Of a DNA stretch of 64,000 nucleotides, positions 18,099 through 31,437 are shown piece by piece. This stretch comes from Terrimicrobium sacchariphilum. GTDB lineage: Bacteria > Verrucomicrobiota > Verrucomicrobiia > Chthoniobacterales > Terrimicrobiaceae. Each line of letters begins with the position of its first letter. Within the stretch, counting starts at the first letter, position 1. The stretch lies in NCBI RefSeq assembly GCF_001613545.1, contig NZ_BDCO01000002.1:434001-498000 (forward strand), read 5' to 3'. The notes beneath the pieces were generated by a model that had not been told where the DNA came from, made no database searches, and saw only the letters and a program-made list of their open reading frames with translations. The translations under genes were made by a program, and so were the position numbers.

Positions 18099-19348
18099 GC
18101 ACGCTGTGGCATGTCCATTTTACCGGCGGCGAAAAGGTCGCCTGGGCGCTCGATGAAGACCTGCGGGTCGCGCGAGAGGCCATGGAGGGGCATGTCATTC
18201 CCACCTCGCCTGCGGCGGCCCGTGTCATTCACTCCGCCTACTGGCCGCGTCTGCTCGATTTCGGCGAGCGTGCGGTACGGGGAAAAAAGCTCGTCTGTTT
18301 CGCGGATAATCCCCCGGTTTATTCACTCACGCAGCCGGAGTTTTCTCAGGCGGCGGCACGGGTGGACCTCTGGATCGCCCGCACCCGCGAGGCTGAGTCG
18401 CAATTTCGCATGCTGGGTCTTCCAGTCGCTCGTGCACCGTACACGGTTGACGCCACCATCTTCCGTCCGCTGGAAAATGACGGCGGACTCCGTCGCGAAC
18501 TGGGCATCGACAAAAAGGCGTTCGTCATTGGGAACTTTCATCGCGATACCGAGGGCACGGACCTGCGTCGATTGAAGCGGCAGAAGGGGGCGGACATTCT
18601 TTTCGAAATCGCCAAGGAACTCTATCAGCGTCTACCGAATCTCGTCGTCCTCCTCGCAGGCCCTCGCCGCCATTGGCTTCGTCGCCGCCTGACTGCGGCA
18701 GGCATCCCCTTCCGTTTTCATGGACGCATTGGCCCGAACGACCAGGACGATTACGATCGCAACATTCTGCCGCGTACGGAACTGAACCGCCTTTATCAGG
18801 CGCTGGACGTTACTGTTGTCCCGTCGCGCTGGGAAGGCGGACCACATTCTCTCCTCGAAGCCCTTTTTGCCGGTCAGGCGGTGATCAGTACGCCTGTAGG
18901 TATCGCCCGGGACATCCTTCCATCGGAGATGCTATTCCGTACGGTGGACGAAGCTGTGAGCATCCTTGAGAACCATGCAAAAACCGGTTCGCTTCGGGAA
19001 CCCGCATTTCTCGCCAGCCGTCGAGCGGATCGAGAAAACTCCACCTCGGCCCTGAGCGAGGCACTGGTGGCGATTTATCAGGAGTTGCCCCGGGGACCAG
19101 AGCGTCCCATGGCCCGGCTCTCGAGCGCGATTGCCTCGTCCCTTTTCCGCGTGCGCCGCCAGCTCGGCCAGCGTCAGGTCGTTTTCCCACCGAATGAGCA
19201 ATCTGCCCTGGCCGATCGGATCATCGCCAAGGTGCAGAGTCGTCATGGAGCGGCTGCTCAGTCGGCGGAGACTCCGCTGGGCGTACATGATCCTGCGAGA
19301 GACGAGCAGATCCTGCTCGGCGCAGCATTGTTTTGCCAAGGGCGATGA
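18095..19348 (+). CDS. Glycosyltransferase family 4
   Basis: 417 residues from GTG at 18095, overlapping the previous stop. The frame is open upstream to 17735, but that part is a shadow of the preceding gene. G-N-F-H-R-D-T-E-G precedes the donor domain, and S-R-W-E-G-G-P-H-S-L-L-E-A-L-F-A-G-Q-A-V is the nucleotide-sugar site with the E-x7-E spacing. The C-terminal 110 residues extend past the usual fold. A likely amphipathic helix lies there, rich in Arg and Gln. Confidence 0.85.
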   Translation: MSTLWHVHFTGGEKVAWALDEDLRVAREAMEGHVIPTSPAAARVIHSAYWPRLLDFGERAVRGKKLVCFADNPPVYSLTQPEFSQAAARVDLWIARTREAESQFRMLGLPVARAPYTVDATIFRPLENDGGLRRELGIDKKAFVIGNFHRDTEGTDLRRLKRQKGADILFEIAKELYQRLPNLVVLLAGPRRHWLRRRLTAAGIPFRFHGRIGPNDQDDYDRNILPRTELNRLYQALDVTVVPSRWEGGPHSLLEALFAGQAVISTPVGIARDILPSEMLFRTVDEAVSILENHAKTGSLREPAFLASRRADRENSTSALSEALVAIYQELPRGPERPMARLSSAIASSLFRVRRQLGQRQVVFPPNEQSALADRIIAKVQSRHGAAAQSAETPLGVHDPARDEQILLGAALFCQGR

Positions 19349-20460
19349 AAAAGGTGCTGTGTTTCAAGCAGGGCAGTTTTTCGTTCGTGAACGAGAGCAT
19401 TGCCCGCACGCTGCCAGCGGCCTTGCCCGGCTATGATTTCCGGTGGCTCGACATCATCGATGATATCGCCCGGCGCCGCCCGGCGACCTACTTTGCCGGA
19501 TTGATTGAGGCCACGCTGCGCTATCCCCAACCGATCTTTCGATATCGGTTTTCGCCCCAGGCGTTCCTGCCACGGACCGTGACGTTCCTCCGTATGTTTG
19601 AGCACTGGGTTGCGACCAGCGAGGAGTTCTCCGGCGCGGCCTTTTCCTTCCAGACCCAATCGGTTTTTCGTGCGATTCGTGCCGGCATACCGCATTTCGG
19701 GTACACGGATCACACCCATCTGGCGAATGCGCGGTATGGCAGCGGCCGCAAGCTCCAGCCGATGACCCCGCAGTGGCTCGCGATGGAGCGATCGCTCTAC
19801 ATGGACTCGCGCGTGACGTTTACCACCGGGGAGTTCGCCGCGAGGTCGGTGATCGAGGATTACAACATCCCGTCCAGCCGGGTGGAGTGCGTGCATTCCG
19901 GGATTAATATCGCCTTTCCCGAGGTATTGCCTGCCAAGGTCAATCCTCACCCCCGCATCGTTTTTGTCGGTGTCGAATGGGAGCGAAAGGGCGGTCCCGA
20001 GATGATCGAAGCCTTTCGAAAACTCACGGGTGAGTTTCCGCAATCCGAGTTGCACATCGTCGGTTGCGACCCTGGCTTGAGCATGGATCGGGTGGTGATC
20101 CATGGCCGTATCCCGCGTGAGCAGGTGGGAGAGCACCTCACGCGAGCGGATATTTTTCTGATGCCCAGCCGCTCCGAACCGAGCGCGGTGGCTGTAGTCG
20201 AGGCGGCGGCGTATGCTCTGCCCGTCGTCACGACCTCAGTAGGGGCCAATGCCGAGCGCGTCCTGGAGGGTGAGAGTGGCTTTCTGGTCCCGCCGCGTAA
20301 TCCCGAGGCCATCGCCGGAGCTTTGCGCAAGCTGCTTTCCGATGCCGCCTTGCGCCAGCGGTTTGGGGAAAGGGGCAGGGCCTTGGTCAAGGAGCACTTC
20401 TTGTGGGAAACGGTGGCTGACAAAATCGCCCGACGCATTCGGGCCGAATTATCCGAATGA
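19345..20460 (+). CDS. Glycosyltransferase family 4
   Basis: 371 residues from the ATG at 19345 (ATGA overlap). It has R-I-V-F-V-G-V-E-W-E-R-K-G-G for phosphate contact, E-L-H-I-V-G-C and P-S-R-S-E-P-S-A-V-A-V-V-E-A-A-A-Y-A-L-P-V-V with the E-x7-E donor residues. The C terminus (A-L-R-K-L-L, R-G-R-A-L-V) is standard for the family. It is coupled to its neighbours on both sides. Confidence 0.88.
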   Translation: MKKVLCFKQGSFSFVNESIARTLPAALPGYDFRWLDIIDDIARRRPATYFAGLIEATLRYPQPIFRYRFSPQAFLPRTVTFLRMFEHWVATSEEFSGAAFSFQTQSVFRAIRAGIPHFGYTDHTHLANARYGSGRKLQPMTPQWLAMERSLYMDSRVTFTTGEFAARSVIEDYNIPSSRVECVHSGINIAFPEVLPAKVNPHPRIVFVGVEWERKGGPEMIEAFRKLTGEFPQSELHIVGCDPGLSMDRVVIHGRIPREQVGEHLTRADIFLMPSRSEPSAVAVVEAAAYALPVVTTSVGANAERVLEGESGFLVPPRNPEAIAGALRKLLSDAALRQRFGERGRALVKEHFLWETVADKIARRIRAELSE

Positions 20461-21560
20461 GTCTTCCCTGGCAGATTGCCTCCGCCGTCCGGGGCGTATT
20501 GGATTTTCCCGAGAGGATGAGGGTTCGCCAGACGCGGGCAGATATCTCTCTCGCATCGTCGGGTGATCCAGTGCTTTCCTTTGGCGGAGTGCTGGAGCGA
20601 CGGGAATTTCTCCATGGCGGAGCCATCAAACTCCTTCATCTCCGCGACGCATTTCCCTCCCATGCCCAGGCGTTCAACATCCTGTACCTGGTCAGCAGCG
20701 CCCAGCCACGTTTTGCTCGGGATCTCTGGGACACCTGCCGTCGCCGAGGGATAAAACTCGTCTGGAATCAAAACGGCGTTGCTTATCGCGGATGGGCGGG
20801 CGCAGAGGCCGAGCGGTTTAATGGCCCGATGCGGTGGCTCCGCGACCGCGCCGACTATGTCGTGTATCAATCCGGGTTTTGCCGAACGGCTTCCGACGAA
20901 TTCCTGGGTCCGGCGGATCGCCCGTCGAGCATACTTTTCAATCCGGTCGATCTGGAAAAGTTTTCGCCCACACCGGAGCCGCTCCCTGCAATCCCGCTCC
21001 GATTGCTCTCATTGGGCACACACAGCTATCCCGACCGGGTTTTGTCGGCATTGCAATGCCTGTCCGTGCTGAGGAAAGAAGGCATCGAGGCGACCCTCAC
21101 GGTGGCGGGCAAAATGGAGTGGCCCGGAGCCACGGACCAGGTGCGTGCCGAGATTCAGAGGCTCGGCCTGGAAGAGGAAATCCGCCTCCTGCCTGCATTC
21201 ACCCAGGATGAGGCGGTGGCGCTTTATCGAGGTCATCATATCGTCCTTCATCCGAAATATCTCGATCCCTGCCCGACGGTTGTCATCGAGTCGCTGGCAT
21301 GTGGGTTGCCCGTTGTGGGTTCCGCCAGTGGCGGATTGCCTGAGATGGTTCCCGCGAATTGTGGTGCGTTGATCCCGGTGCCTCTCGTCTGGGATCGGAT
21401 GATCACGCCGCCCGCTGCAGAATGGGCTGCCGCGGTGAAAAAGGTGATACCGCATCTCGCGGAGTATTCCCAGGCAGCCCGGCAGCATGCCGTCCAGTGC
21501 TTCCAGGCGGAAACATGGATCGCCGAGCATCGACGGATTTTTGAAAATCTCCTCGCGTGA
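20457..21560 (+). CDS. Glycosyltransferase family 4
   Basis: 367 residues. The N-terminal half holds an acceptor-type segment (L-V-W-N-Q-N-G-V-A-Y-R-G-W) and F-N-P-V-D-L-E-K-F at the hinge. The donor half has L-R-L-L-S-L-G-T-H, L-T-V-A-G-K-M and L-H-P-K-Y-L-D-P-C-P-T-V-V-I-E-S-L-A-C-G-L-P. In this last, the first Glu of E-x7-E is Asp-Pro. The start overlaps by ATGA and the stop by GTGA. Confidence 0.85.
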   Translation: MSLPWQIASAVRGVLDFPERMRVRQTRADISLASSGDPVLSFGGVLERREFLHGGAIKLLHLRDAFPSHAQAFNILYLVSSAQPRFARDLWDTCRRRGIKLVWNQNGVAYRGWAGAEAERFNGPMRWLRDRADYVVYQSGFCRTASDEFLGPADRPSSILFNPVDLEKFSPTPEPLPAIPLRLLSLGTHSYPDRVLSALQCLSVLRKEGIEATLTVAGKMEWPGATDQVRAEIQRLGLEEEIRLLPAFTQDEAVALYRGHHIVLHPKYLDPCPTVVIESLACGLPVVGSASGGLPEMVPANCGALIPVPLVWDRMITPPAAEWAAAVKKVIPHLAEYSQAARQHAVQCFQAETWIAEHRRIFENLLA

Positions 21561-22546
21561 GTACGCCCGCCGTCACAGTTCTCATGACAGTCTACAATGC
21601 GCGAGCCTACCTCGACGTTGGCATCCGCAGCATTCTCGGGCAGACATTTCGAGACCTTGAGTTTCTCATTATTGACGATGGCTCGACGGACGGGGGAGAG
21701 GAGATTTTAAAAGCCTGGGCGGGAAAGGATTCACGCATTCGGCTCATCCTCAATCCGGTCAACCAGGGGCAGACTGTTTGCCTGAACCAAGGCATCACGG
21801 AGGCGCGCGCACCATGGATCGCCCGTCAGGATGCTGACGATCTGCCCCATCCACAACGTTTGGAACTCCAGATGGCCGAGCTTCACCGCCGGCCCGAACT
21901 GGTCATTCTCGGCACGAACGGATGGCTTATCACCGAGGACGGCACATTTTGCGGCCTGATCAACGCCCCGTGCGGCGAGGAATCTGTTCGCTGGTTCACC
22001 CTGTACGACAACCCGTTCATCCACGCCTCGGTCTGTTTCCGGAGGGACGCTGCTCTGGCGGTTGGAAAGTATGATCCGCATTTCCGCATCACGCAGGATT
22101 ACGATCTCTGGCTGAAGCTCCTCAAAACAGGCCCGGGCGACAACCTCCCCCAGCGCCTGATTTCCTACCGGGTGGTCGACTCTTCCCTTTCGCACCAGAA
22201 AGCCGAGGCCACCGCCTCCGAGGCGATGGAGGCAAATCGCCGCGCGTTCGTGCAATGGGGGCTGGAATCCCACGCCACCCGGAGCAATCTGGCGCTTGTC
22301 AGCCAGCTTCGCGATGGATTCGTGCCGGGCAAACGCGCGGAATTTTGGGCTTTGCACCGGGAACTCGAGAAGACGCGCCCGGCTCCTGCCTGCGATCGCG
22401 CCGAGGCCAGATGCCTCCTCCATTGGAAAGCGGCAGGCAAATTGGGAGCATCAGCGGCGATGGCTCAGGAAATGTCAGCGAGCCTTCGCGCTCAACCGGA
22501 CTTGTTTTTCAGCCTGCTGCGGGATCGAATGATGGGACCGCGATGA
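21557..22546 (+). CDS. Glycosyltransferase family 2
   Basis: 329 residues from GTG at 21557. The core is V-T-V-L-M-T-V-Y-N-A-R, I-I-D-D-G-S-T-D-G-G and A-R-Q-D-A-D-D-L at the metal site, with I-T-Q-D-Y-D-L-W-L-K at about 175 as the catalytic region. This is a standard WcaA-like GT2. It is coupled to the GT4 before it and to the acetyltransferase after it. Confidence 0.9.
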   Translation: MSTPAVTVLMTVYNARAYLDVGIRSILGQTFRDLEFLIIDDGSTDGGEEILKAWAGKDSRIRLILNPVNQGQTVCLNQGITEARAPWIARQDADDLPHPQRLELQMAELHRRPELVILGTNGWLITEDGTFCGLINAPCGEESVRWFTLYDNPFIHASVCFRRDAALAVGKYDPHFRITQDYDLWLKLLKTGPGDNLPQRLISYRVVDSSLSHQKAEATASEAMEANRRAFVQWGLESHATRSNLALVSQLRDGFVPGKRAEFWALHRELEKTRPAPACDRAEARCLLHWKAAGKLGASAAMAQEMSASLRAQPDLFFSLLRDRMMGPR

Positions 22547-23034
22547 ATAGCCTTTTTCAGGACTGGGATGTGAATGTGGGAAACCCGAAGGGGCGCGCCG
22601 TGCTTGTCTTCTGGCGGCTCTGCCGGGCGATTCGTTCCCTGCCGGGAGGACTGTGGCTGCTGGGTTCTCCGCTCCTGCTCCTCTATGTCGTGGGAGTGGA
22701 GTGGATCATGGGGATCGAGCTCGGCTACTCCACGCGTATCGGCACGCGTCTGCGCCTTTATCATGCCAGCGGCCTCGTGGTGCATCCTGCGGCGGTGATC
22801 GGAGATGATTGCATCCTGCGACAGGGCGTGACCATTGGCTACCGACAGGCGGGTGAGGGGGTTCCGGTCCTGGGGAACAACGTCGAGATCGGTTGCGGGG
22901 CGATCCTGCTCGGTGCGATCCGGGTCGGCGATGGTGCGAAAATCGGAGCCGGAGCAGTAGTCATCAAAGACGTCCCCGCCGGAGCCGTGGCGGCAGGGAA
23001 TCCTGCGAAGGTCATTCGGGCACAACAGGCGTGA
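22543..23034 (+). CDS. Serine acetyltransferase-like hexapeptide O-acetyltransferase
   Basis: 163 residues from the ATG at 22543. An N-terminal helix (about 18-60, with a hydrophobic stretch L-L-G-S-P-L-L-L-L-Y-V-V) precedes the left-handed beta helix. The helix has L-Y-H-A-S-G-L-V-V-H-P, I-G-D-D-C-I-L-R-Q-G-V-T-I-G and I-G-A-G-A-V-V-I-K-D-V-P, then the usual N-P-A-K-V end. It is shorter than CysE (about 270) and fits the WcaB/colanic-acid type that acetylates sugars. The histidine of the catalytic site is probably H in L-Y-H-A-S-G. Context favours sugar O-acetylation over cysteine synthesis. Confidence 0.8.
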   Translation: MNSLFQDWDVNVGNPKGRAVLVFWRLCRAIRSLPGGLWLLGSPLLLLYVVGVEWIMGIELGYSTRIGTRLRLYHASGLVVHPAAVIGDDCILRQGVTIGYRQAGEGVPVLGNNVEIGCGAILLGAIRVGDGAKIGAGAVVIKDVPAGAVAAGNPAKVIRAQQA

Positions 23035-24125
23035 GGTTTCTTTTTCTTTCCAGTTACGCGCATCTGGTACTTGATCCGGCCTCGACCCGGGTCTCCGGAG
23101 GAGCGGAGCTTCAGGTTGCTCTGCTGGCGCGGGAACTTGCTGGTCGCGGCTACGAAACCACCATCGCCGCAGGGGACATCGGCCAGCCGGACGGGCAGGT
23201 CTTCCAAGGCGTGAGAATCCGCAATGGCGGAAAGTTTCAAACCGGCGGCCTGGTCGATAGCCTGAGGGCGCTCCCCAGGGTGGCTCGCATCCTCCGCGAG
23301 GAACGACCTGATCATGTGCTGATTCTCGGCTGGACGGCATGGCTGTTCATCCTCTGGCTGCTCCGCCCCATTTTTGGTTTTCAGCTTCATTTTATCTGTG
23401 GTCTCGACACGGAGGTGAATGGTGGCTTTCGGCGCGACAATCCGGTACGAGGATGGCTCTTTGAATTTGGCATGCGCCACTGCGACCAGCGCTTTGCCAT
23501 GACGAAGCTGCAGGAACGGCTCTTCCAGAAGCAGGGCATGCCGTGTTCCCTGTACCGGAATCTGATCCTGCCCCGGGCAGAACCTCGCACGGCGGAAAAG
23601 ACGGTCGATTTTCTCTGGGTCGCCCGATGCCAGCCGATCAAGCAGCCCCATATCTTTCTCGATCTCGTCGAGGCGATCCCCGAGGCCCGCTTTGAGATGA
23701 TCTGCCCCTGCGAGGATGCCGCGCTCTTTGAATCCGTGCGCATACGGGCGGAGAAGCTGCCCAATCTCATTTTCCATAACGGCGTTCCCTATCGCGAGGT
23801 GCAGTCTCACTACGATCGCGCACGGGTCTTTGTAAACACCTCGACGTGGGAGGGGTGGCCAAACAGCTTTATCCAGTCCGGCCTCGCCTCCACAGCGCTG
23901 CTCTCGCTCATTGTGCGTCCCGACACGCTGTTTGAAGACTTTCAGCTAGGCGCCTGCATGGGTGGAGACCGGGAGCGATTCGTGGTTCTCGCCCGACAGT
24001 GGTTTGCTGACCGTGTCGCCACGGAGGCGATGGGGCGTGAGGCTGAGCGCTTTGTCCGCGAGCTTCATGATAATACGAAGGAAACCGACGCCTTCCTCGC
24101 CGGGCTGCCGGTCGCGAAACGATGA
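23031..24125 (+). CDS. Glycosyltransferase family 4
   Basis: 364 residues from GTG at 23031, overlapping the acetyltransferase stop. The acceptor loop is S-G-G-A-E-L-Q-V-A-L-L-A-R-E-L. The donor half has F-L-W-V-A-R-C-Q-P-I-K-Q-P and N-T-S-T-W-E-G-W-P-N-S-F-I-Q-S-G-L. The second Glu of E-x7-E appears as Gln, a departure from most of the family. It is coupled by ATGA to the last gene of the cluster. Confidence 0.82.
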   Translation: MRFLFLSSYAHLVLDPASTRVSGGAELQVALLARELAGRGYETTIAAGDIGQPDGQVFQGVRIRNGGKFQTGGLVDSLRALPRVARILREERPDHVLILGWTAWLFILWLLRPIFGFQLHFICGLDTEVNGGFRRDNPVRGWLFEFGMRHCDQRFAMTKLQERLFQKQGMPCSLYRNLILPRAEPRTAEKTVDFLWVARCQPIKQPHIFLDLVEAIPEARFEMICPCEDAALFESVRIRAEKLPNLIFHNGVPYREVQSHYDRARVFVNTSTWEGWPNSFIQSGLASTALLSLIVRPDTLFEDFQLGACMGGDRERFVVLARQWFADRVATEAMGREAERFVRELHDNTKETDAFLAGLPVAKR

Positions 24126-25243
24126 TCAAGGTTCTCCAGGTCATCGATCATCTGGGTTCCGGCGGAGCGCAAACCGTCCTGCTCAACTTGCTGAAGTTTC
24201 GCGATCAGCGGGACTTTTCCTACACCGTGGCCTGCCTGCACGGGAAAGGAGGCGTCGCCGCGGAGCTGGAGGCCATCGGCGTGCCAGTGGTCTCATTGTC
24301 TCCCGGGAAACTGCCGCCGCTCTATGTGCCGAATCTCGCACGGTTGCTCATAAAAGAGCGTTTCGACATCGTGCATTGCCATCTATTTGGGGCGAATTGG
24401 CTGGCTCGCCCCATCGCCGCCCTCTGCGGGCAGAGAGCGATCTTTGCCCACGATCATTGTAATGATGCCCTGCGCGAGCGCCTCGCTCCATTTCTCGTCG
24501 ATCGCCTGACCAATCTGCTTTCGTGCAAGATCCTCGCGGTCTCACGCACCACCCGCGAGTTTCTCCTCCGCCAGGAAGGACTCTCCGATGAGGTGGTCGA
24601 ATATTTCACCAACGGCGTGGACGTGGATGCCTTCCAGCCTCCATCGCCTGAGGCCCGCGCGGCGTTTCGTGCTCGCTGGGGGTTGAAGCCGGGGGATTTT
24701 GTCATTGGGGGCATTGGTCGCCTCGTGCCGCAAAAGGACTTCACCACCTTTCTCCGAGCCGCCGTACTGGTGGCGGAGAAATCGACCGCCGCCCGCTTTG
24801 TCATCTTTGGGGAGGGTCCGGAGGAGGCGGAACTGAAAGCTCTGGCTGAAAGCCTCGGCCTCGGCGATCACGTACGATTTGCCGGATACGTCGGCGACCG
24901 ACAGGCGGTTTATGGGGCCATCGATCTCCTGCTCCTCACCTCCCGCTATGAGGGAACTCCCATGGTCTTGCTGGAAGCCATGGCGGCAGGGGTGCCGATT
25001 TGCGCCACCGGGGTCGATGGAACGGCGGAGATTCTGGCATCGAGAGAGACGGCATTGCTCTTCCCTCCCGCTGATCCGCAGGCCGCGGCCGAGGCGGTTC
25101 TTGAGATGCAAAATCAGCCATTTTCGCACAAACTGAGCCTTGCCGCCCGGTCGCGCGTGCAGGCGGATTTCTCGGCCAAGTCCCTCTGCCACAGGCTTGA
25201 ACAGTTGTATCGCGAGATGCTCCCGGTTGCGCCGACCGGATAA
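24122..25243 (+). CDS. Glycosyltransferase family 4
   Basis: 373 residues and the last gene of the coupled run. V-I-D-H-L-G-S-G-G-A-Q-T-V is the acceptor loop, I-G-R-L-V-P-Q-K-D-F the phosphate site and S-R-Y-E-G-T-P-M-V-L-L-E-A-M-A-A-G-V-P the complete E-x7-E donor motif. The C terminus ends with a standard helix. A hairpin with a T-tract lies about 35 bases after the stop and probably ends the operon. Confidence 0.92.
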   Translation: MIKVLQVIDHLGSGGAQTVLLNLLKFRDQRDFSYTVACLHGKGGVAAELEAIGVPVVSLSPGKLPPLYVPNLARLLIKERFDIVHCHLFGANWLARPIAALCGQRAIFAHDHCNDALRERLAPFLVDRLTNLLSCKILAVSRTTREFLLRQEGLSDEVVEYFTNGVDVDAFQPPSPEARAAFRARWGLKPGDFVIGGIGRLVPQKDFTTFLRAAVLVAEKSTAARFVIFGEGPEEAELKALAESLGLGDHVRFAGYVGDRQAVYGAIDLLLLTSRYEGTPMVLLEAMAAGVPICATGVDGTAEILASRETALLFPPADPQAAAEAVLEMQNQPFSHKLSLAARSRVQADFSAKSLCHRLEQLYREMLPVAPTG

Positions 25244-25275
25244 GCCTCCTTGCCTAGTCGAGAGGGAGTTACTAA

Positions 25276-25311
25276 GGTCGCCCGCGATGTTTCCCGAGGG
25301 CGGCCTTTTTT
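25276..25311 (+). terminator. Rho-independent terminator of the glycan cluster
   Basis: GGTCGCCC at 25276-25283 pairs with GGGCGGCC at 25298-25305 (one G-U pair, 14-base loop) and six T follow. It lies 33 bases after the last glycosyltransferase stop. An ATG at 25287 that could start the next gene sits in the loop, see the entry for that gene. Confidence 0.7.
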
Positions 25312-25829
25312 CGTATGTGCGACAGACCAGCGTACGGCTGGCGCTGTTCGCCGTTGCCGTGATCTTGTCCGGCTGCGCAGCTACCCAGACTTTCACCCCC
25401 CAGACGGCTCCGGACTACGTGATGATCCGGGACTACACTCCGTTTTATCGGCTCGGGCCGATGCAGGGGAGGCCGGATGCCTCGCTGCCCTCCGGGACGC
25501 GGGTGAAGCTCCTGCGTCAGGAAATGGGCTTCAGCCTCGTCCAACTTTCCGACAGCCGTACAGGATATGTCGCCAATGAGAATATGGTGCCAGCCCCGCC
25601 ACTTCCTCCATCCGCGACGGACTCAGACTCTTCGGACTCCTCGTCCAAGCCCGGCAAGAAGCGCCGCAACGTGCCGGACAGTCCGCGCTACACTGGCGAA
25701 CAGCTCAACGATATCCCGATGCCCGAGCCACACACCCCGGCTCCGGACCTGAATATCGCTCCTGAGGACGTGGCCGCGCCAGCTCCGACTCCGACGCCGC
25801 CGGCGGAAAAGCCAAAATTCCGGTATTAA
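25287..25829 (+). CDS. SH3-like domain lipoprotein
   Basis: 180 residues if started at the ATG at 25287. The lipobox L-S-G-C is followed by A-A-T-Q-T-F, so it should be lipidated and held at the membrane. A GTG at 25317, just after the terminator's T-tract, would give a shorter and more usual signal peptide (M-R-Q-T-S-V-R-L-A-L-F-A-V-A). Residues about 45-105 carry a bacterial SH3-type fold (T-P-F-Y, G-T-R-V-K-L-L, G-Y-V-A-N-E). The rest is Ser/Pro/Lys-rich linker. It may bind peptidoglycan or a partner in the envelope. Confidence 0.7.
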   Translation: MFPEGGLFSYVRQTSVRLALFAVAVILSGCAATQTFTPQTAPDYVMIRDYTPFYRLGPMQGRPDASLPSGTRVKLLRQEMGFSLVQLSDSRTGYVANENMVPAPPLPPSATDSDSSDSSSKPGKKRRNVPDSPRYTGEQLNDIPMPEPHTPAPDLNIAPEDVAAPAPTPTPPAEKPKFRY

Positions 25830-25881: not shown

Positions 25882-28833
25882 ATGTCCGACCCGGTACGTT
25901 TTCAACATTTCGAGGTATTGCGCCGCGAGGACGGTTCGCTGTTCGAACTCGGTCGCGGTGCCATGGGCATCACGTACAAGGCGTTTGACACGAATCTGCG
26001 CTGCTTTGTCGCCCTCAAGGTCATCAACGGCACGTATTTAAACAGCGACATCGCCCGCCAGCGGTTCCTGCGGGAGGCCCGGGCTGCCGCCGCGCTGCGC
26101 CACCCGAATGTGGCGACCGTCTTTCACCTCGGTGACGAGGAGGATAATTACTTTTACGCCATGGAGTTCATCGACGGCGAGACCGTCGAGGCCTTCATGA
26201 AGCGCGAGGGCGCGGTGCCGCCCGTGATGGCTCTGGAGATTGCCCTGCAGGTCTGCCGGGCTCTCACTGCCGCCGAGAAACAGGGGCTCGTCCATCGCGA
26301 TATCAAGCCCGCGAATCTCATGCTCATCTGGGAGGATGATACGGAGTTCACGGTCAAGGTGATCGATTTCGGCCTCGCGAAGAACTCCAGCAAGGAGGAC
26401 GGCGAGGATGCTGCCACGCTCACGGCGGGCGGATTCCTTGGCACTCCGCACTTCGCCAGTCCCGAGCAGCTCGACGAGCGAGAGATCGATATTCGCTCCG
26501 ATATTTACTCCCTCGGGGTGACTCTCTGGTACATGCTCGCGGGCAAGACCCCCTTTAGCGGTTCGCTCGCCCAGGTGATGAGCCAGCACCTGCACCGCGA
26601 CCCGCCGTTTCAGTCCCTCGACGGCCAGATTCCATCTGTGGTTGGACTGCTCAAACACATGATGGCCAAGGCCCCGGAGGACCGCCCGGCCACGCCAGCG
26701 GCCCTCCGCAAGGAAATCGAGGAGTGTCTCGCAGCCCTGCGGCAGTCCGGGGCATCCACTGCTCCCGCCACCAGTGCAGATGCGGAATCATTCGAGACGG
26801 TCGTCCTGCCCGAGCCGATCGCCGAGGCGGAAACTCTCGCCTCCGGGCAAATGCTCGCGGGTCGTTTCCGACTTATCGCCGAGACTGTGGCCTCGGATCA
26901 CGGTCGATTGTTCAAGGCCGATAGCCTGGAGGACGGCAAGACTGTCGCGGTGCTAATCCTGCATTCGGAAAAGTTCGCCACCTCGCAGGCATTCACCCAG
27001 CTCGAGCAGGAGATCGAGACGCTCCAGCGCCTTCGCGCCCCGGCCTTGCAGAAAATCCTCTCGCTGGAGCGCACGGACTACCACAGCTTCATCGTCCTGG
27101 AATGGGTCGACGGGCCGACCTTGCTCGACCTGCTGCGCACCCGCCGCCTGCTCCCTGTTCCCGAGGCGGTGCGACTGCTCGCTCCGCTGGCGGAAGCGTT
27201 TGATAACATTGCCGAGGCGGGACTGAATTGCCCCGATATCGCGGCTCATGAGGTGACTCTCACTGGTGGGGAAGTCGACACTCCGGTGACGGGCTGGACG
27301 ACCTGCCACCCGCGTTTCCTCGGCCTGAGCCAGGCCGGAGCCTCAAACCTGCCCGCCGACGCCACCATGGTGGCGACATCCTACGCGCTGATGAAGGCCG
27401 CCGGCGCGTTCGCGGCCAATCCTCGCAATGCCTTTGTTTACGCCGTCGCCACGCTTGCTTTTGAAATGCTGGGCGGGGTGAGGGGAGGGTCGTCGATCGG
27501 GACGTTCGTTCCCATCGCCGGTCTTTCCGAGGATGGCAACAATGCCCTGCGCCAGGCGCTTGATCCCGCGAAAGGCTTCGCCACGGCCGCCGAGTTTGTC
27601 ACACGCCTTTCCGAGGCCCGGTCGACTGCCGCGGTCCCTTCCGCTCCGGTCATTGCTCCTGCGATTCCTTCGCCGGCTCCGTCGGTGGAACCGGCCACGG
27701 CTGCGACTATTCCCGGCAGGAAGAAGACCTCGCCCATCCTCATTCTCGGAGTGTCGGGAGGAGTCCTGGTTATTCTCGCGATTCTCGGTGTGCTCCTCAG
27801 TGCCCGCAAAGGCGCCCCGGCGGAAAAGCCTGTCGAGCCAGTGGTCGCTTCTGCCACGCCGACGCCCACGCCGGTTCCCGCGACACCCACGCCGATCCCG
27901 GTCAACCAGCCGTATCTCGATGACATGGCCAGGGCCGACGCCTTGCTTCACGAGGGCAACTTTCCCGGTGCGCTCGCCGCCTACACCAGGGTCGCGGTGA
28001 ATTACCCGGATGAGAAAAAACCGCTCGATCAACTCGAGCTCGTTTCAGCGAGTCTCCGCGCGCGAAAGATCCCGGCCAGCCAGGTCGCCTCGCTACGCGG
28101 CCCGCTTGAGACGGCAGCGGAGTTGAAAGTTCGTTCCGCCCAGATGGCTCTTGGGGAAATGTTGAGGGTGAGCGATCCATCGGCTGCGTTGAAATGGTTC
28201 ATCGCGGCGGCGGATCAGGGTCAGACCGAGGCGATGGTCTACGCCGGTCAGATGCAGGCCAGCGGGCAGGGCGTCTCCGCTCCGGATTTCGTCAGCGCCG
28301 CCAAGTGGTTCACCAAGGCAGCTGATGGGCAGGATGCCGACGGCATGTACTTCCTCGCGGAATGTTATCTCAGTCCCGACAGCTCCAAAGGCGTGCTTCG
28401 CGATCCGCAGAAGGCCTTTGTACTGCTCTCCACCGCCGCCACGGTCAGGAACCACACCCGGGCCATGAATCTCCTCGGGGATATTTACACCAAGGGCATT
28501 CCGAACGTGGTGGAGCGTGATTACGCCAAGGCGTTTGATTTCTTCAGTAAGGCCTCCGCAGGCGGGCTGCTCGACGCCCAAGGAAATCTCGGCGTTCTCT
28601 ACATCAATGGGCAGGGAGTCGAAAAAGATCCGGCCAAGGCAGCTGCGTTATTCAAGGAAGGCGCGGAGCAGAAAAATCCTCTCTGCATGTACTTCTACGC
28701 GATGTGCCTGGACGGCGGCTTCGGCGTTGAGAAAAACGCCTCAGAGGCCAGGGAGATGTATCGTGCTGCCGCAAGGCTTGGAAATGCCAAGGCACTGGAT
28801 TGGTGCCGATCGAAGGGCGTCTCTCTGGAGTGA
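25882..28833 (+). CDS. Membrane Ser/Thr protein kinase with degenerate second kinase domain and Sel1 repeats
   Basis: 983 residues. The first kinase domain (about 10-280) is complete: L-G-R-G-A-M-G loop at 23-29, K46, H138-R-D140-I-K-P-A-N145, D162-F-G164, and S-P-E at 193-195. Residues 326-580 look like a second kinase fold but lack the lysine (V-A-V-L-I-L at 355-360), the HRD motif (C-P-D-I-A at 450-454) and the DFG (T-G-W-T-T-C). A Pro-rich linker, one membrane segment (about 618-640) and another Pro-rich stretch follow. Sel1-type repeats fill about 755-975, with A-A-K-W-F-T-K-A-A-D and A-F-D-F-F-S-K-A-S as units. The Sel1 part should face the periplasm. Confidence 0.88.
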   Translation: MSDPVRFQHFEVLRREDGSLFELGRGAMGITYKAFDTNLRCFVALKVINGTYLNSDIARQRFLREARAAAALRHPNVATVFHLGDEEDNYFYAMEFIDGETVEAFMKREGAVPPVMALEIALQVCRALTAAEKQGLVHRDIKPANLMLIWEDDTEFTVKVIDFGLAKNSSKEDGEDAATLTAGGFLGTPHFASPEQLDEREIDIRSDIYSLGVTLWYMLAGKTPFSGSLAQVMSQHLHRDPPFQSLDGQIPSVVGLLKHMMAKAPEDRPATPAALRKEIEECLAALRQSGASTAPATSADAESFETVVLPEPIAEAETLASGQMLAGRFRLIAETVASDHGRLFKADSLEDGKTVAVLILHSEKFATSQAFTQLEQEIETLQRLRAPALQKILSLERTDYHSFIVLEWVDGPTLLDLLRTRRLLPVPEAVRLLAPLAEAFDNIAEAGLNCPDIAAHEVTLTGGEVDTPVTGWTTCHPRFLGLSQAGASNLPADATMVATSYALMKAAGAFAANPRNAFVYAVATLAFEMLGGVRGGSSIGTFVPIAGLSEDGNNALRQALDPAKGFATAAEFVTRLSEARSTAAVPSAPVIAPAIPSPAPSVEPATAATIPGRKKTSPILILGVSGGVLVILAILGVLLSARKGAPAEKPVEPVVASATPTPTPVPATPTPIPVNQPYLDDMARADALLHEGNFPGALAAYTRVAVNYPDEKKPLDQLELVSASLRARKIPASQVASLRGPLETAAELKVRSAQMALGEMLRVSDPSAALKWFIAAADQGQTEAMVYAGQMQASGQGVSAPDFVSAAKWFTKAADGQDADGMYFLAECYLSPDSSKGVLRDPQKAFVLLSTAATVRNHTRAMNLLGDIYTKGIPNVVERDYAKAFDFFSKASAGGLLDAQGNLGVLYINGQGVEKDPAKAAALFKEGAEQKNPLCMYFYAMCLDGGFGVEKNASEAREMYRAAARLGNAKALDWCRSKGVSLE

Positions 28834-28892
28834 TTAGGGAGTCATTAGGCAACCCATGATGCGAAAAGTGCAAAATTCGCATAGAGCATTCC

Positions 28893-28921
28893 TTGCAACC
28901 CGCGGAAGGGGCTGGTAATCC
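28893..28921 (+). promoter_or_regulatory. Predicted promoter of the sucC-VOC-sucD operon
   Basis: TTGCAA at 28893 and TAATCC at 28916 are 17 bases apart. The -10 ends 23 bases before the sucC ATG. The fit to consensus is moderate and no operator is evident. Confidence 0.35.
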
Positions 28922-28944
28922 GAGTCTCTTTTCCTCTTACCCGA

Positions 28945-30132
28945 ATGAACATCCACGAATACCAAGCGCGTGAGCTTTTCGCCAAATTTGGCGTCGCGAC
29001 CCAACCCGGAGCGGTTGCTTTTACTCCTGATGAAGCCGAGGCCGTTGCTTCGAAACTCGGAGGAAAGATCGTCGTCAAGGCCCAGATCCACGCGGGCGGA
29101 CGCGGCAAGGGGACGTTCAAAAACGGTTTCAAGGGCGGCGTGCATCTTTGTGACACCCCGGCCCAGGCTCGTGACCTCGCTTCCCAGATGCTCGGCCAGG
29201 TGCTCGTGACGCACCAGACCGGCCCGGAGGGCAAGGAAGTCGGCAAGGTTTTCGTCGGCGAGGCGGTCGACATCACGAAGGAACTGTATTTCGCCATCCT
29301 CCTCGACCGCGCCACCTCGGCTCCGGTCGTCATCGCCAGCACCGAGGGCGGCGTGGACATCGAGTCCGTCGCCGAGCACACCCCGGAGAAGATCATTCGC
29401 GTGGGCGTGAATCCGGCCCTCGGTCTCATGCCCTTCCAGAGCCGCAAGATCGCCGCGACGCTCGGCCTCACCGGCCCGCTCGCCAACCAGGCGGTCAAGC
29501 TGTTCGCCAATCTCTACAAGCTCTTCATCGACTGCGATTGCTCGATGGTCGAGATCAACCCGCTGGTCATCACGGCCAAGGGCGAGCTCCTCGCGCTCGA
29601 CGCGAAGTTCAACTTTGACGACAACGCTCTTTACCGTCAGCCCGCCATCGTGGCGATGCGCGACAAGAGCGAGGAAGACCCCCGTGAGGTGGCGGCTTCC
29701 GAGTACTCGCTGAATTACATCGGACTCGACGGAAACATCGCCTGTCTCGTCAACGGCGCCGGTCTCGCCATGGCGACGATGGACATCATTCAATACGCGG
29801 GCGGCAAGCCGGCGAACTTCCTCGACGTCGGCGGCGGCGCGAGCAAGGACCAGGTTTCCGCGGCCTTCCGCATCATCCTCGGCGATGCCAACGTGAAGGG
29901 CATCCTCGTGAACATTTTCGGCGGTATCATGGACTGCAACATCATTGCCAACGGCATCGTGGAAGCAGCCCGCGAAACCAGCCTCAGCATCCCGCTCGTC
30001 GTTCGCCTGGAAGGCAACAACGTCGAGGCGGGCAAGAAGACGCTCGCGGAGAGCGGCCTCGCCCTCATCACGGGCGACGACATCCTCGACGCCGCCCAGA
30101 AGGTCGTCGCCGCGGTCGCCAAGGCTGCCTGA
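28945..30132 (+). CDS. sucC: Succinate-CoA ligase (ADP-forming) beta subunit
   Basis: 395 residues, the normal length. The N-terminal M-N-I-H-E-Y-Q-A and [10 protein letters not shown] are diagnostic, followed by the ATP-grasp region ([14 protein letters not shown]), metal-binding M-V-E-I-N-P-L at about 197-203 and D-V-G-G-G-A-S. With SucD it converts succinyl-CoA to succinate in the TCA cycle, with phosphorylation of ADP or GDP. A VOC gene lies between it and sucD, all on one strand with short gaps, so they should be cotranscribed. Confidence 0.97.
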
Positions 30133-30141
30133 TTCACGAAA

Positions 30142-30531
30142 ATGATCAAGGAAGTCGCATTCATCGGATACCCCGTTACGGACGTGGCCCGTGCGCGCGC
30201 CTTCTATGAGGGTTTTCTCGGACTCAAGGTTCATTGCGCGGAGGAGATCAAGACCATGCCTGGCATCTGGTGGATCGAGTACGATGTCGCCGGTGTGACG
30301 GTTGCGATCTCCAATGCCTGGCCCCCTTCGGGCCAGAGTGGACCCGGGGTGGCATTTGAGGTCGACGATCTCGACGCCTTTGTCGCCAAGACCCGCGAAG
30401 CCGGAGTTTCCTTTGCTTTTGAGCCGATGGAGAGCCCGATCTGCCGATTCTTCGGCATCAAGGACCCCGACGGCAACGATATCACCATTCACCAGCGTTC
30501 CGCGGATCACCCGGAACATTCCCATTCTTAA
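30142..30531 (+). CDS. VOC (glyoxalase/bleomycin resistance) superfamily protein
   Basis: 129 residues, one complete vicinal-oxygen-chelate module. The strands include I-K-E-V-A-F-I-G-Y-P-V-T-D-V-A-R-A-R-A-F-Y-E at the start, V-A-F-E-V-D-D-L in the middle and F-F-G-I-K-D-P-D-G-N-D-I-T-I-H-Q at the end. The metal ligands of glyoxalase I are not all evident: the first-strand His is replaced by the F-I-G-Y-P region, while H (I-H-Q) is kept. The His-rich tail H-P-E-H-S-H-S is odd. It lies between sucC and sucD with 9-base gaps on each side, so it is made with the enzyme. Function is unknown. Confidence 0.82.
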   Translation: MIKEVAFIGYPVTDVARARAFYEGFLGLKVHCAEEIKTMPGIWWIEYDVAGVTVAISNAWPPSGQSGPGVAFEVDDLDAFVAKTREAGVSFAFEPMESPICRFFGIKDPDGNDITIHQRSADHPEHSHS

Positions 30532-30540
30532 CCCCACACC

Positions 30541-31437
30541 ATGGCCATCCTCGTCAATCCCGACACGCGCATCCTCATTCAGGGCATCACTGGCAGCTTC
30601 GGCGCCAAGCACGCCCAGCTCAGCCTCGACTACGGCACGAAAGTCGTCGCAGGCGTCACCCCCGGTAAAGGCGGCCAGCTTTTCTCGAACGTCGTTCCGA
30701 TCTTTGACACGGTCGACCAGGCCGTGAAGGAGACGGGCGCCACGGTTTCCGTGGTATTCGTCCCGCCGCCATTCGCTGCGGACGCGATCCTCGAAGGCGT
30801 TGACGCCGGTCTCGATCTCGTGGTTGCGATCACCGAGGGCATCCCGGTCAATGACATGGTGAAGGTGAAGCAGGCCATGCGCGGTTCCAAGACCCGCCTC
30901 ATCGGGCCGAATTGTCCCGGTCTCGTCACTCCCGGCGAGGGAGAGAAGTCCCATGGCGGCTGCCGCATCGGCATCGCTCCCGGCTACATTCATAAGAAGG
31001 GCAACGTGGGCGTGGTCTCGCGTTCCGGCACCCTTACGTACGAGGCGGTATGGCAGCTGACCACGCGCGGCTACGGCCAGAGCACCTGCGTCGGCATCGG
31101 CGGCGATCCGGTCAACGGCACCTCGCACACCGACGTACTCAAGATGTTCAACGATGACCCGGAAACCGAGGCCATCATCATGATCGGCGAGATCGGCGGC
31201 ACGGCCGAGGAAGAAGCCGCAGCATGGGCCAAGGAATACTGCAAGAAGCCGATCGCGGCCTTCATCGCCGGCGCCACGGCGCCTCCGGGACGCCGCATGG
31301 GCCACGCTGGAGCCATCGTGTCCGGCGGCAAGGGCACAGCGGCCGCCAAGATCGCGGCCCTGGAGGATGCGGGTATTGCCGTTTCCCCGACCCCGGCCGA
31401 GATGGCCGACACGCTGATCCGCCACTGGGGCAAATAA
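30541..31437 (+). CDS. sucD: Succinate-CoA ligase (ADP-forming) alpha subunit
   Basis: 298 residues, standard length. [12 protein letters not shown] and G-V-T-P-G-K-G-G form the CoA-binding Rossmann part, I-G-P-N-C-P-G is the phosphate loop, and G-H-A-G-A-I-V near residue 257 carries the histidine that is phosphorylated during the reaction. It partners the sucC product. A strong terminator follows 20 bases after the stop. Confidence 0.97.

Follow-up and report, generated by a model that had tools for sequence, protein, structure and literature searches.

Kinase and pseudokinase in one chain: a predicted bacterial protein family seen from a Sel1 repeat protein of Terrimicrobium sacchariphilum

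What does a bacterial protein kinase gain from a second kinase domain, in the same chain, that has lost most of its catalytic residues? The question is raised by one gene in a stretch of 64,000 nucleotides from Terrimicrobium sacchariphilum (Verrucomicrobiota; Chthoniobacterales; Terrimicrobiaceae; assembly GCF_001613545.1, contig NZ_BDCO01000002.1, positions 434,001 to 498,000 of the forward strand), here called the window, whose own coordinates are used below. A first-pass annotation, made from the letters alone, had read the gene as joining a kinase, a pseudokinase, a membrane segment and Sel1 repeats in one protein; this combination is seen in the window, recurs family-wide and includes a pseudokinase domain (D2) under selection. 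By homology, the window protein is a member of a sizeable bacterial family of kinase and pseudokinase pairs. Its open reading frame (ORF), 25882-28833 on the + strand, is free of stops across all 983 residues and contains the following parts.

25882..28833, + strand: whole gene, 983 amino acids (aa), in the order kinase, pseudokinase, membrane segment, Pro/Thr-rich stalk, Sel1 array
25945..26712, + strand: D1, complete Ser/Thr kinase domain, residues 22-277 (Pfam Pkinase, 6.6e-51)
26746..26829, + strand: D1-D2 linker, containing Thr306 within 'FETVV'
26830..27630, + strand: D2, predicted pseudokinase domain, residues 317-583 (by homology)
27364..27366, + strand: Thr495, in a variable D2 loop that aligns near the D1 activation loop (Thr in 62/69)
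27538..27540, + strand: Asn553 of D2, the sole residue invariant across 70/70 rows of alignment A3
27736..27792, + strand: membrane segment, residues 619-637, a single hydropathy peak with a mean Kyte-Doolittle value of 2.8
27910..28830, + strand: C-terminal part of the protein (residues 677-983), which holds the six Sel1 stretches (Pfam)

The Sel1 match (Pfam, 3.4e-36) consists of six stretches at E <=1 each, three of them at 0.001, and the Pro/Thr-rich stretch comes after the membrane segment 619-637. The closest named relatives are Verrucomicrobia, namely L037 and L038, the latter of Spartobacteria bacterium LR76 (handles with L denote loci, those with G genomes). For the family, 69 proteins were gathered via matches to the window D2; longer stretches were fetched and duplicate loci removed, and contig ends truncate some of the frames.

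D1 carries the Hanks-type set in full: the glycine-rich loop (G-loop), the beta-3 Lys, the helix aC Glu, His-Arg-Asp (HRD), the catalytic-loop Asn, Asp-Phe-Gly (DFG), the helix aF Asp and an APE-type motif, here Ser-Pro-Glu. The window residues are Lys46, Glu65, His138-Arg139-Asp140, Asn145, Asp162-Phe163-Gly164 and Ser-Pro-Glu193-195, and in the merged D1/D2 alignment 64/64 D1 rows retain Lys46, Glu65, His-Arg-Asp, Asn145, Asp-Phe-Gly and Ser-Pro-Glu; of the five other proteins, L040, L083 and L108 are cut at the 5' end and L060 and L086 are without D1. D1 is accordingly classed, on its motifs, as a putative Hanks-type Ser/Thr kinase with every catalytic motif, and the complete kinase suggested earlier at residues ~10-280 is recovered at 22-277.

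For D2, the kinase fold is predicted from several kinds of match. Scanned alone, residues 315-583 give 9.3e-7 and 28.9 bits against Pfam Pkinase, slightly short of its 31.7-bit cut-off; against PK_Tyr_Ser-Thr they score 25.9 bits and exceed the cut-off of 23.1. Residues 321-583 find StkP in the PDB at 4.9e-6. A profile of the D2 family (A3, 70 domains) retrieves 1164 distinct PDB sequences at E <=0.001, and the best 60 of these are all protein kinases (best 2.4e-26); StkP and PknA head the matches at 1e-25 to 1e-26, and PknB is also among the best. Aligned with each other, the D1 and D2 profiles give an hhalign probability of 99.9% over 257 columns. AlphaFold models of residues 1-610 and 302-599, made from three rows (the window protein, L037 and L038), reach predicted local distance difference test (pLDDT) values of 35.2 and 39.6. 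These models are poor because the three input rows are nearly identical, and since D1, a clear kinase, scores equally low, the values are uninformative about D2. The second kinase-like part proposed at ~326-580 thus corresponds, by the Pfam, PDB and profile matches, to D2 at 317-583.

Few of the canonical residues are left in this domain. In the window D2 the Lys is replaced by Leu358, HRD by Cys-Pro-Asp452, the loop Asn by Glu457 and DFG by Gly-Leu-Ser, and the HRD Asp is the only canonical residue retained; the loss of Lys, HRD and DFG that the first-pass annotation described therefore holds for the Lys, for the His and Arg and for DFG, and not for the HRD Asp. The D2 alignment comprises 69 domains from 68 proteins (L059 gives two; L079 was omitted for its short cover), all recruited by likeness to the window D2, so that intact second domains might have escaped. 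Within it, the DFG Asp and the catalytic-loop Asn are kept in 0/69 domains, the beta-3 Lys in 20/69, the HRD Asp in 27/69 and the latter two together in 6/69. Absence in homologues, which had been suggested as a check, is thus constant for the DFG Asp and the loop Asn and inconstant for the Lys and the HRD Asp. With the DFG Asp gone in 69/69, the Lys in 49/69 and the HRD Asp in 42/69, the domains qualify as pseudokinases. The first two glycines of the G-loop are mostly missing as well, the string DFG occurs in 4/69 domains (two in the G-loop region, one near the C-terminal end) and HRD in 1/69; around DFG the merged D1/D2 alignment is uncertain. Overall, D2 is predicted to be without the residues for canonical Mg-ATP binding.

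A kinase fold that has lost these residues may gain another catalytic activity, as in SelO, which AMPylates, and SidJ, which glutamylates, according to the available part of a 2025 review of bacterial pseudokinases (PMC12599244). The Lys and HRD Asp that some D2 domains keep would fit such a change, as would a new set of conserved residues: besides the invariant Asn553, the D2-specific positions Arg328, Glu407, Gly411, Arg421, Glu428, Asp441, Thr495, Glu528, Gly532, Pro544 and Leu556-Arg557 are conserved at >=90% in A3. The loss of the DFG Asp and loop Asn in 69/69 domains, the mostly missing G-loop glycines and the Leu in place of Lys in the window D2 speak against it, and we consider a new catalysis by D2 very improbable.

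The D2 family is widespread in the order. At E <=1e-40, the D2 profile finds at least 96 matches in at least 39 of 213 genomes of the order, with up to nine per genome; at most 11 candidates were scored per genome, so the counts are lower bounds. In samples of 384 genomes of the class and 387 of the phylum, with 6 candidates scored per genome, the strong matches listed all lie within the order, except that of G491 (182.9 bits), and in the phylum search the matches outside the order reach 130 bits or less. The matches of G491 and G276 (119 bits) are tandems, and L125 and L130, from the phylum search, are divergent ones; divergent tandems appear to reach other families of the class. That the wide D2 matches are a mere generic-kinase artefact was considered and rejected; L125, L130 and G491 are tandems. 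Among ten single-kinase domains from the phylum-search matches, eight carry strings of both the HRD and the DFG type, and L127 and L132 carry DFG only.

Searching with D1 in 286 genomes of the class, from which 30 loci were taken, D2 was found behind D1 at >100 bits in 13/30 loci and not found in 16/30, and L177 is doubtful at 44 bits. The D2 profile for these loci had been rebuilt to include the D2 domains of L139, L125, L026 and L130. L165, L166 and L169 are the same proteins as L125, L026 and L130, so their scores are necessarily inflated; prior to the rebuild, these three proteins scored 116, 98 and 101 bits. In a tree of 52 D1 domains (26/64 family rows, 20/30 of the loci and 6 others), made by a quick method and with many open forks, all 31 tandem rows fall inside one supported set of 37 (support 99), the other 6 being without D2. 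L150-L155, L157-L159 and L177 are omitted from this tree; L177 aside, these nine loci mostly duplicate rows already in the family alignment. The presence and absence of D2 requires at least four changes on it, and L156 is placed among tandem rows, so D2 was probably lost there; at least one loss of D2 in the family is therefore probable. The D1 of L156 (460 bits) is followed by a linker that leads to a membrane segment and Sel1 repeats, and the D1 of L160 (404 bits) by a membrane segment, both without D2; the segments start 72 (L156) and 106 (L160) residues past D1. L156 is also an example of the kinase-Sel1 proteins with a single kinase part to which the first-pass annotation had referred.

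In a tree of 81 kinase domains made by a quick method, a long branch (support 100) splits 27 D2-type domains from 28 D1-type and 26 single-kinase domains. An origin of D2 by duplication of D1 was considered and set aside, the D2-type domains standing apart in this tree, though with its long branches and midpoint rooting the tree does not fix where D2 came from. Among plasmids, 1020 records match by tblastn, none over >80% of the query; in the 20 listed it is D1 that is covered, and some of them extend no further than residue 400. No relative of the window protein (P0001) was found in viral contigs.

Across the family, the parts attached to D1 and D2 vary. Sel1 was found in 20/46 proteins scanned (some cut; 23/69 left out), PEGA in 10/46, FGE-sulfatase in 8/46, CarboxypepD_reg in 7/46 and TIR_2 in 3/46, and families may co-occur in one protein. 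As the partners interchange while D1-D2 stays, D1-D2 acts as a core joined to many parts. TIR lies ahead of D1 in L069, L076 and L085 (Pfam; genome G106), with FGE-sulfatase behind D2 in L069 and TPR in L085. The association of TIR with a kinase is reminiscent of conflict or defence systems. L072, L073, L087 and L088 bear an N-terminal extension resembling that of the proteins with TIR, kinase and pseudokinase, and L059:621-6080 (-) encodes a protein of 1820 aa in which two consecutive pseudokinase domains come after a single kinase domain; it also has seven PEGA stretches.

D2 can apparently also stand apart from D1, as in L060, where no D1-profile match lies in the 12 kb fetched. At L086:996-3939 (+), a standalone D2 ORF (start chosen by eye) stops 16 bp short of an ORF that carries an FHA domain and a kinase-like part. 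In this neighbour, HRD is replaced by His-Cys-Thr and DFG by Asn-Trp-Gly, so it is itself a pseudokinase, and an active FHA-kinase partner in trans is ruled out for it by the loss of HRD and DFG. Near the contig start of L086, the opposite strand has a segment in which HRD and DFG are both intact; it is cut by the contig end.

Is D2 then merely carried along? In three genus pairs, the ratio of non-synonymous to synonymous substitution rates (dN/dS) is 0.083, 0.044 and 0.095 for D2, compared with 0.027, 0.020 and 0.032 for D1, 0.096, 0.098 and 0.090 for the Sel1 part, and 0.32, 0.48 and 0.27 for the juxtamembrane stretch next to D2. D2 is under purifying selection within the genus, and its low ratio beside that of the juxtamembrane stretch argues that it is no decaying relic. 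A functionless D2, retained only by being in frame, would agree with its faster evolution than D1 in 4/4 pairs and with its probable loss from L156. This explanation is strongly disfavoured, to the point of being nearly dismissed, by the within-genus dN/dS of 0.04-0.10, similar to the Sel1 part (0.09-0.10), by the conservation of D2 residues across the order and by the D2 proteins that exist without D1.

Two threonines stand out. Thr495 is Thr in 62/69 D2 domains within an otherwise variable loop. In the linkers, the pattern [EA]T[LIVMQ] is present in 40/65, against a mean of 8.3 and a maximum of 18 in 500 shuffles. The pattern tried first,.T[VILMK][VIL], occurs in 17/65, and three further patterns in 31/65 (shuffled mean 14.8, maximum 29), 17/65 (1.2, 4) and 15/65 (2.6, 8). 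Four linker patterns, including [EA]T[LIVMQ], were picked after inspecting the linkers, and the shuffle statistics ignore the kinship of the rows. We propose Thr306 and Thr495 as candidate sites of phosphorylation by D1.

A conserved threonine inside a variable loop is also what would be expected if D2 were a scaffold, whose loop Thr is phosphorylated by D1 and recruits a partner that reads phosphothreonine through an FHA domain. A precedent is MviN, which is phosphorylated on its tail by PknB and thereby recruits FhaA, as set out in the available part of the review (PMC12599244), and in G075 an FHA-domain ORF begins 16 bp beyond the stop of a D2 ORF without D1. The residues flanking the Thr, however, form no clear FHA motif, and this single FHA neighbour is fused to a second pseudokinase; FHA genes near other relatives were not sought. 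By analogy with MviN, the scaffold would be a serious rival, if an unlikely one.

We somewhat favour the reading that the window protein is a transmembrane receptor-type Ser/Thr kinase whose pseudokinase D2 gates, docks or organises D1. D2 sits between D1 and the membrane segment in most rows examined. In such an arrangement, D1 and D2 would be cytoplasmic, and the Sel1 array would be periplasmic and could bind a protein or a cell-wall ligand. D2 would be the coupling part, keeping D1 off or on or organising D1 dimers, and engagement of the outer part would lead D2 to release D1, like JH2 in JAKs. Phosphorylation by D1 of the loop Thr in D2 and of the linker Thr might then create a docking or switching site. 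Allosteric control in response to an envelope signal, as first suggested for this gene, is plausible. This conserved bacterial tandem, which recombines and has natural siblings without D2, offers a simple system in which to ask what a pseudokinase adds to its kinase.

Several observations weigh against gating by D2. The AlphaFold models of D2 and of its contact with D1 (pLDDT 35.2 and 39.6) are unusable. In the distant pair of the window protein and L093, with dS near saturation, dN/dS is 0.20 for D2, 0.08 for D1 and 0.19 for the Sel1 part. The conservation of Thr495 may be structural, and the sucC-linked member of G043 has Val at this position. The same G043 member stops after D2, with neither membrane segment nor Sel1, so envelope sensing cannot be general, and 11/69 rows, some incomplete, are without a hydropathy peak. 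The close relatives L156 and L160 indicate, judging by their domains, that such a kinase manages without D2, and D2 in turn is found without D1 (L060, L086).

Among known systems, the receptor-type Hanks kinases PknB and StkP likewise have all motifs in the kinase, one membrane segment and repeats beyond it. The window protein differs in being without PASTA and in its extra motif-less kinase domain between kinase and membrane; for PASTA, the Pfam scan gives Sel1 repeats but none of the PASTA type, and NCBIfam PknB_PASTA_kin scores 275 bits against a cut-off of 450. L156 and L160, from the same order, likewise run from D1 to a membrane segment, with Sel1 confirmed for L156, and unlike the window protein both are without D2.

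The available part of the review names seven families of bacterial pseudokinases, including ActPs1, ActPs2, ActPs3, GLW, CP1, DYD and DLHK, and gives actinobacterial, proteobacterial or cyanobacterial hosts for ActPs1, ActPs3, GLW and CP1; the words tandem, Sel1 and Verrucomicrob are absent from the review (PMC12599244). MviN (ActPs3) is likewise a bacterial pseudokinase with degraded motifs and a membrane protein, but as far as this part goes no active kinase in the same protein is described and ActPs3 is mainly actinobacterial (PMC12599244). MviN is not among the best 60 of the 1164 PDB matches to A3; with regard to an activation-loop deletion of the ActPs3 type, 36/69 D2 rows are gapped at the APE columns, which may or may not amount to such a deletion. 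GLW pseudokinases are defined there by GLW in place of HRD, and CP1 by being without a membrane segment and linked to a COG3899 domain (PMC12599244). The string GLW occurs in 0/69 D2 domains, and the window protein has a membrane segment, while none of the 11 Pfam families listed for it is an ATPase family.

The kinase MAD6 of the methylation-associated defence system (NF047741) is also comparable, as its 612-position model aligns to window residues 118-444 and to D2 alone over 489-608. The window protein, at 166 bits against a cut-off of 460, is not a member. Since the model runs from late D1 into D2, MAD6 may itself hold two kinase-like parts; no paper on MAD6 was found in the open-access literature. 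A search of that literature, with subscription papers and preprints outside it, likewise found no bacterial kinase-pseudokinase tandem and no Verrucomicrobia Sel1 kinase.

Pseudokinase control of a kinase within one chain is well studied in eukaryotes. In JAKs, the order is JH2-JH1, and the JH2 pseudokinase controls the kinase in the same chain. JAKs and the plant tandem kinase-pseudokinase proteins such as Yr15 likewise combine both domains in one chain, but they are eukaryotic, and the likeness to the window protein is one of outline. The plant family is described, with Yr15, in the available part of PMC6170490, and control by the pseudokinase in JAK is mentioned in the discussion of the bacterial review (available part; PMC12599244).

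The genes downstream may bear on what the kinase controls.

28945-30132, + strand: sucC (Pfam ATP-grasp_2, 1.1e-76), 111 bp past the kinase gene
30142-30531, + strand: VOC-like ORF (named by eye)
30541-31437, + strand: sucD (named by eye and position)

The kinase gene lies directly 5' of sucC at gaps of 111 bp in L037 and L038, 25 in G006, 86 in G013 and 73 in G005, and of 71 bp in G043, which belongs to another family. In G079, of a third family, the gap of 605 bp contains an ORF of 164 aa, and a VOC-like ORF again lies between sucC and sucD. The loci linked to sucC-sucD are window 28833-31437, L093, L094, L095, L092 and L195. Of the 39 genomes with D2, 28 have sucC placed, and the kinase adjoins it in 8/28, from three families, and in 6/8 within the window's own family. 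In G008, kinase and sucC are on different contigs and the 2.7 kb below the kinase are without sucC; G011 has its kinase truncated at a contig end, and no kinase lies in the 2.2 kb upstream of its sucC. For most other genomes contig numbers alone were compared, and separate draft contigs are compatible with adjacency. Eighteen sucC stretches from other genomes (upstream 0.6 kb in one, 1.0 kb in one, more in the rest) hold no D1- or D2-like kinase.

Shared descent accounts for part of this linkage; its occurrence across three families suggests co-expression of the kinase gene and sucC. A scan for promoters and terminators gave 0 and 2 sites, not above shuffles and none in the gap between kinase and sucC. 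In the window's lineage, the output might be tied to central metabolism or its control, as the linkage suggests, and an action of the kinase on SucCD is conjecture; for a kinase together with sucCD, the open-access literature gave nothing relevant among the matches listed. More speculative, and doubtful as a whole, is a bacterial JAK-like gating of presumably separate origin. Here the core of kinase and pseudokinase would be ancestral to a clade of Verrucomicrobia kinases and would have recombined with sensor and effector parts (Sel1, PEGA, FGE-sulfatase, TPR, TIR); D1 would switch the receptor by phosphorylating the conserved Thr of the D2 loop, and the members linked to sucCD would couple the citric acid cycle to a signal from the envelope or from metabolism.

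Upstream of the kinase gene, 25140-25829 holds a lipoprotein-like gene with a weak SH3_3 match (0.0015, below the cut-off); it stands beside the kinase in two genus relatives, and its likely ATG is near 25287 (by eye). Further upstream, four ORFs with glycosyltransferase matches (19333-25243) are perhaps part of a polysaccharide cluster.

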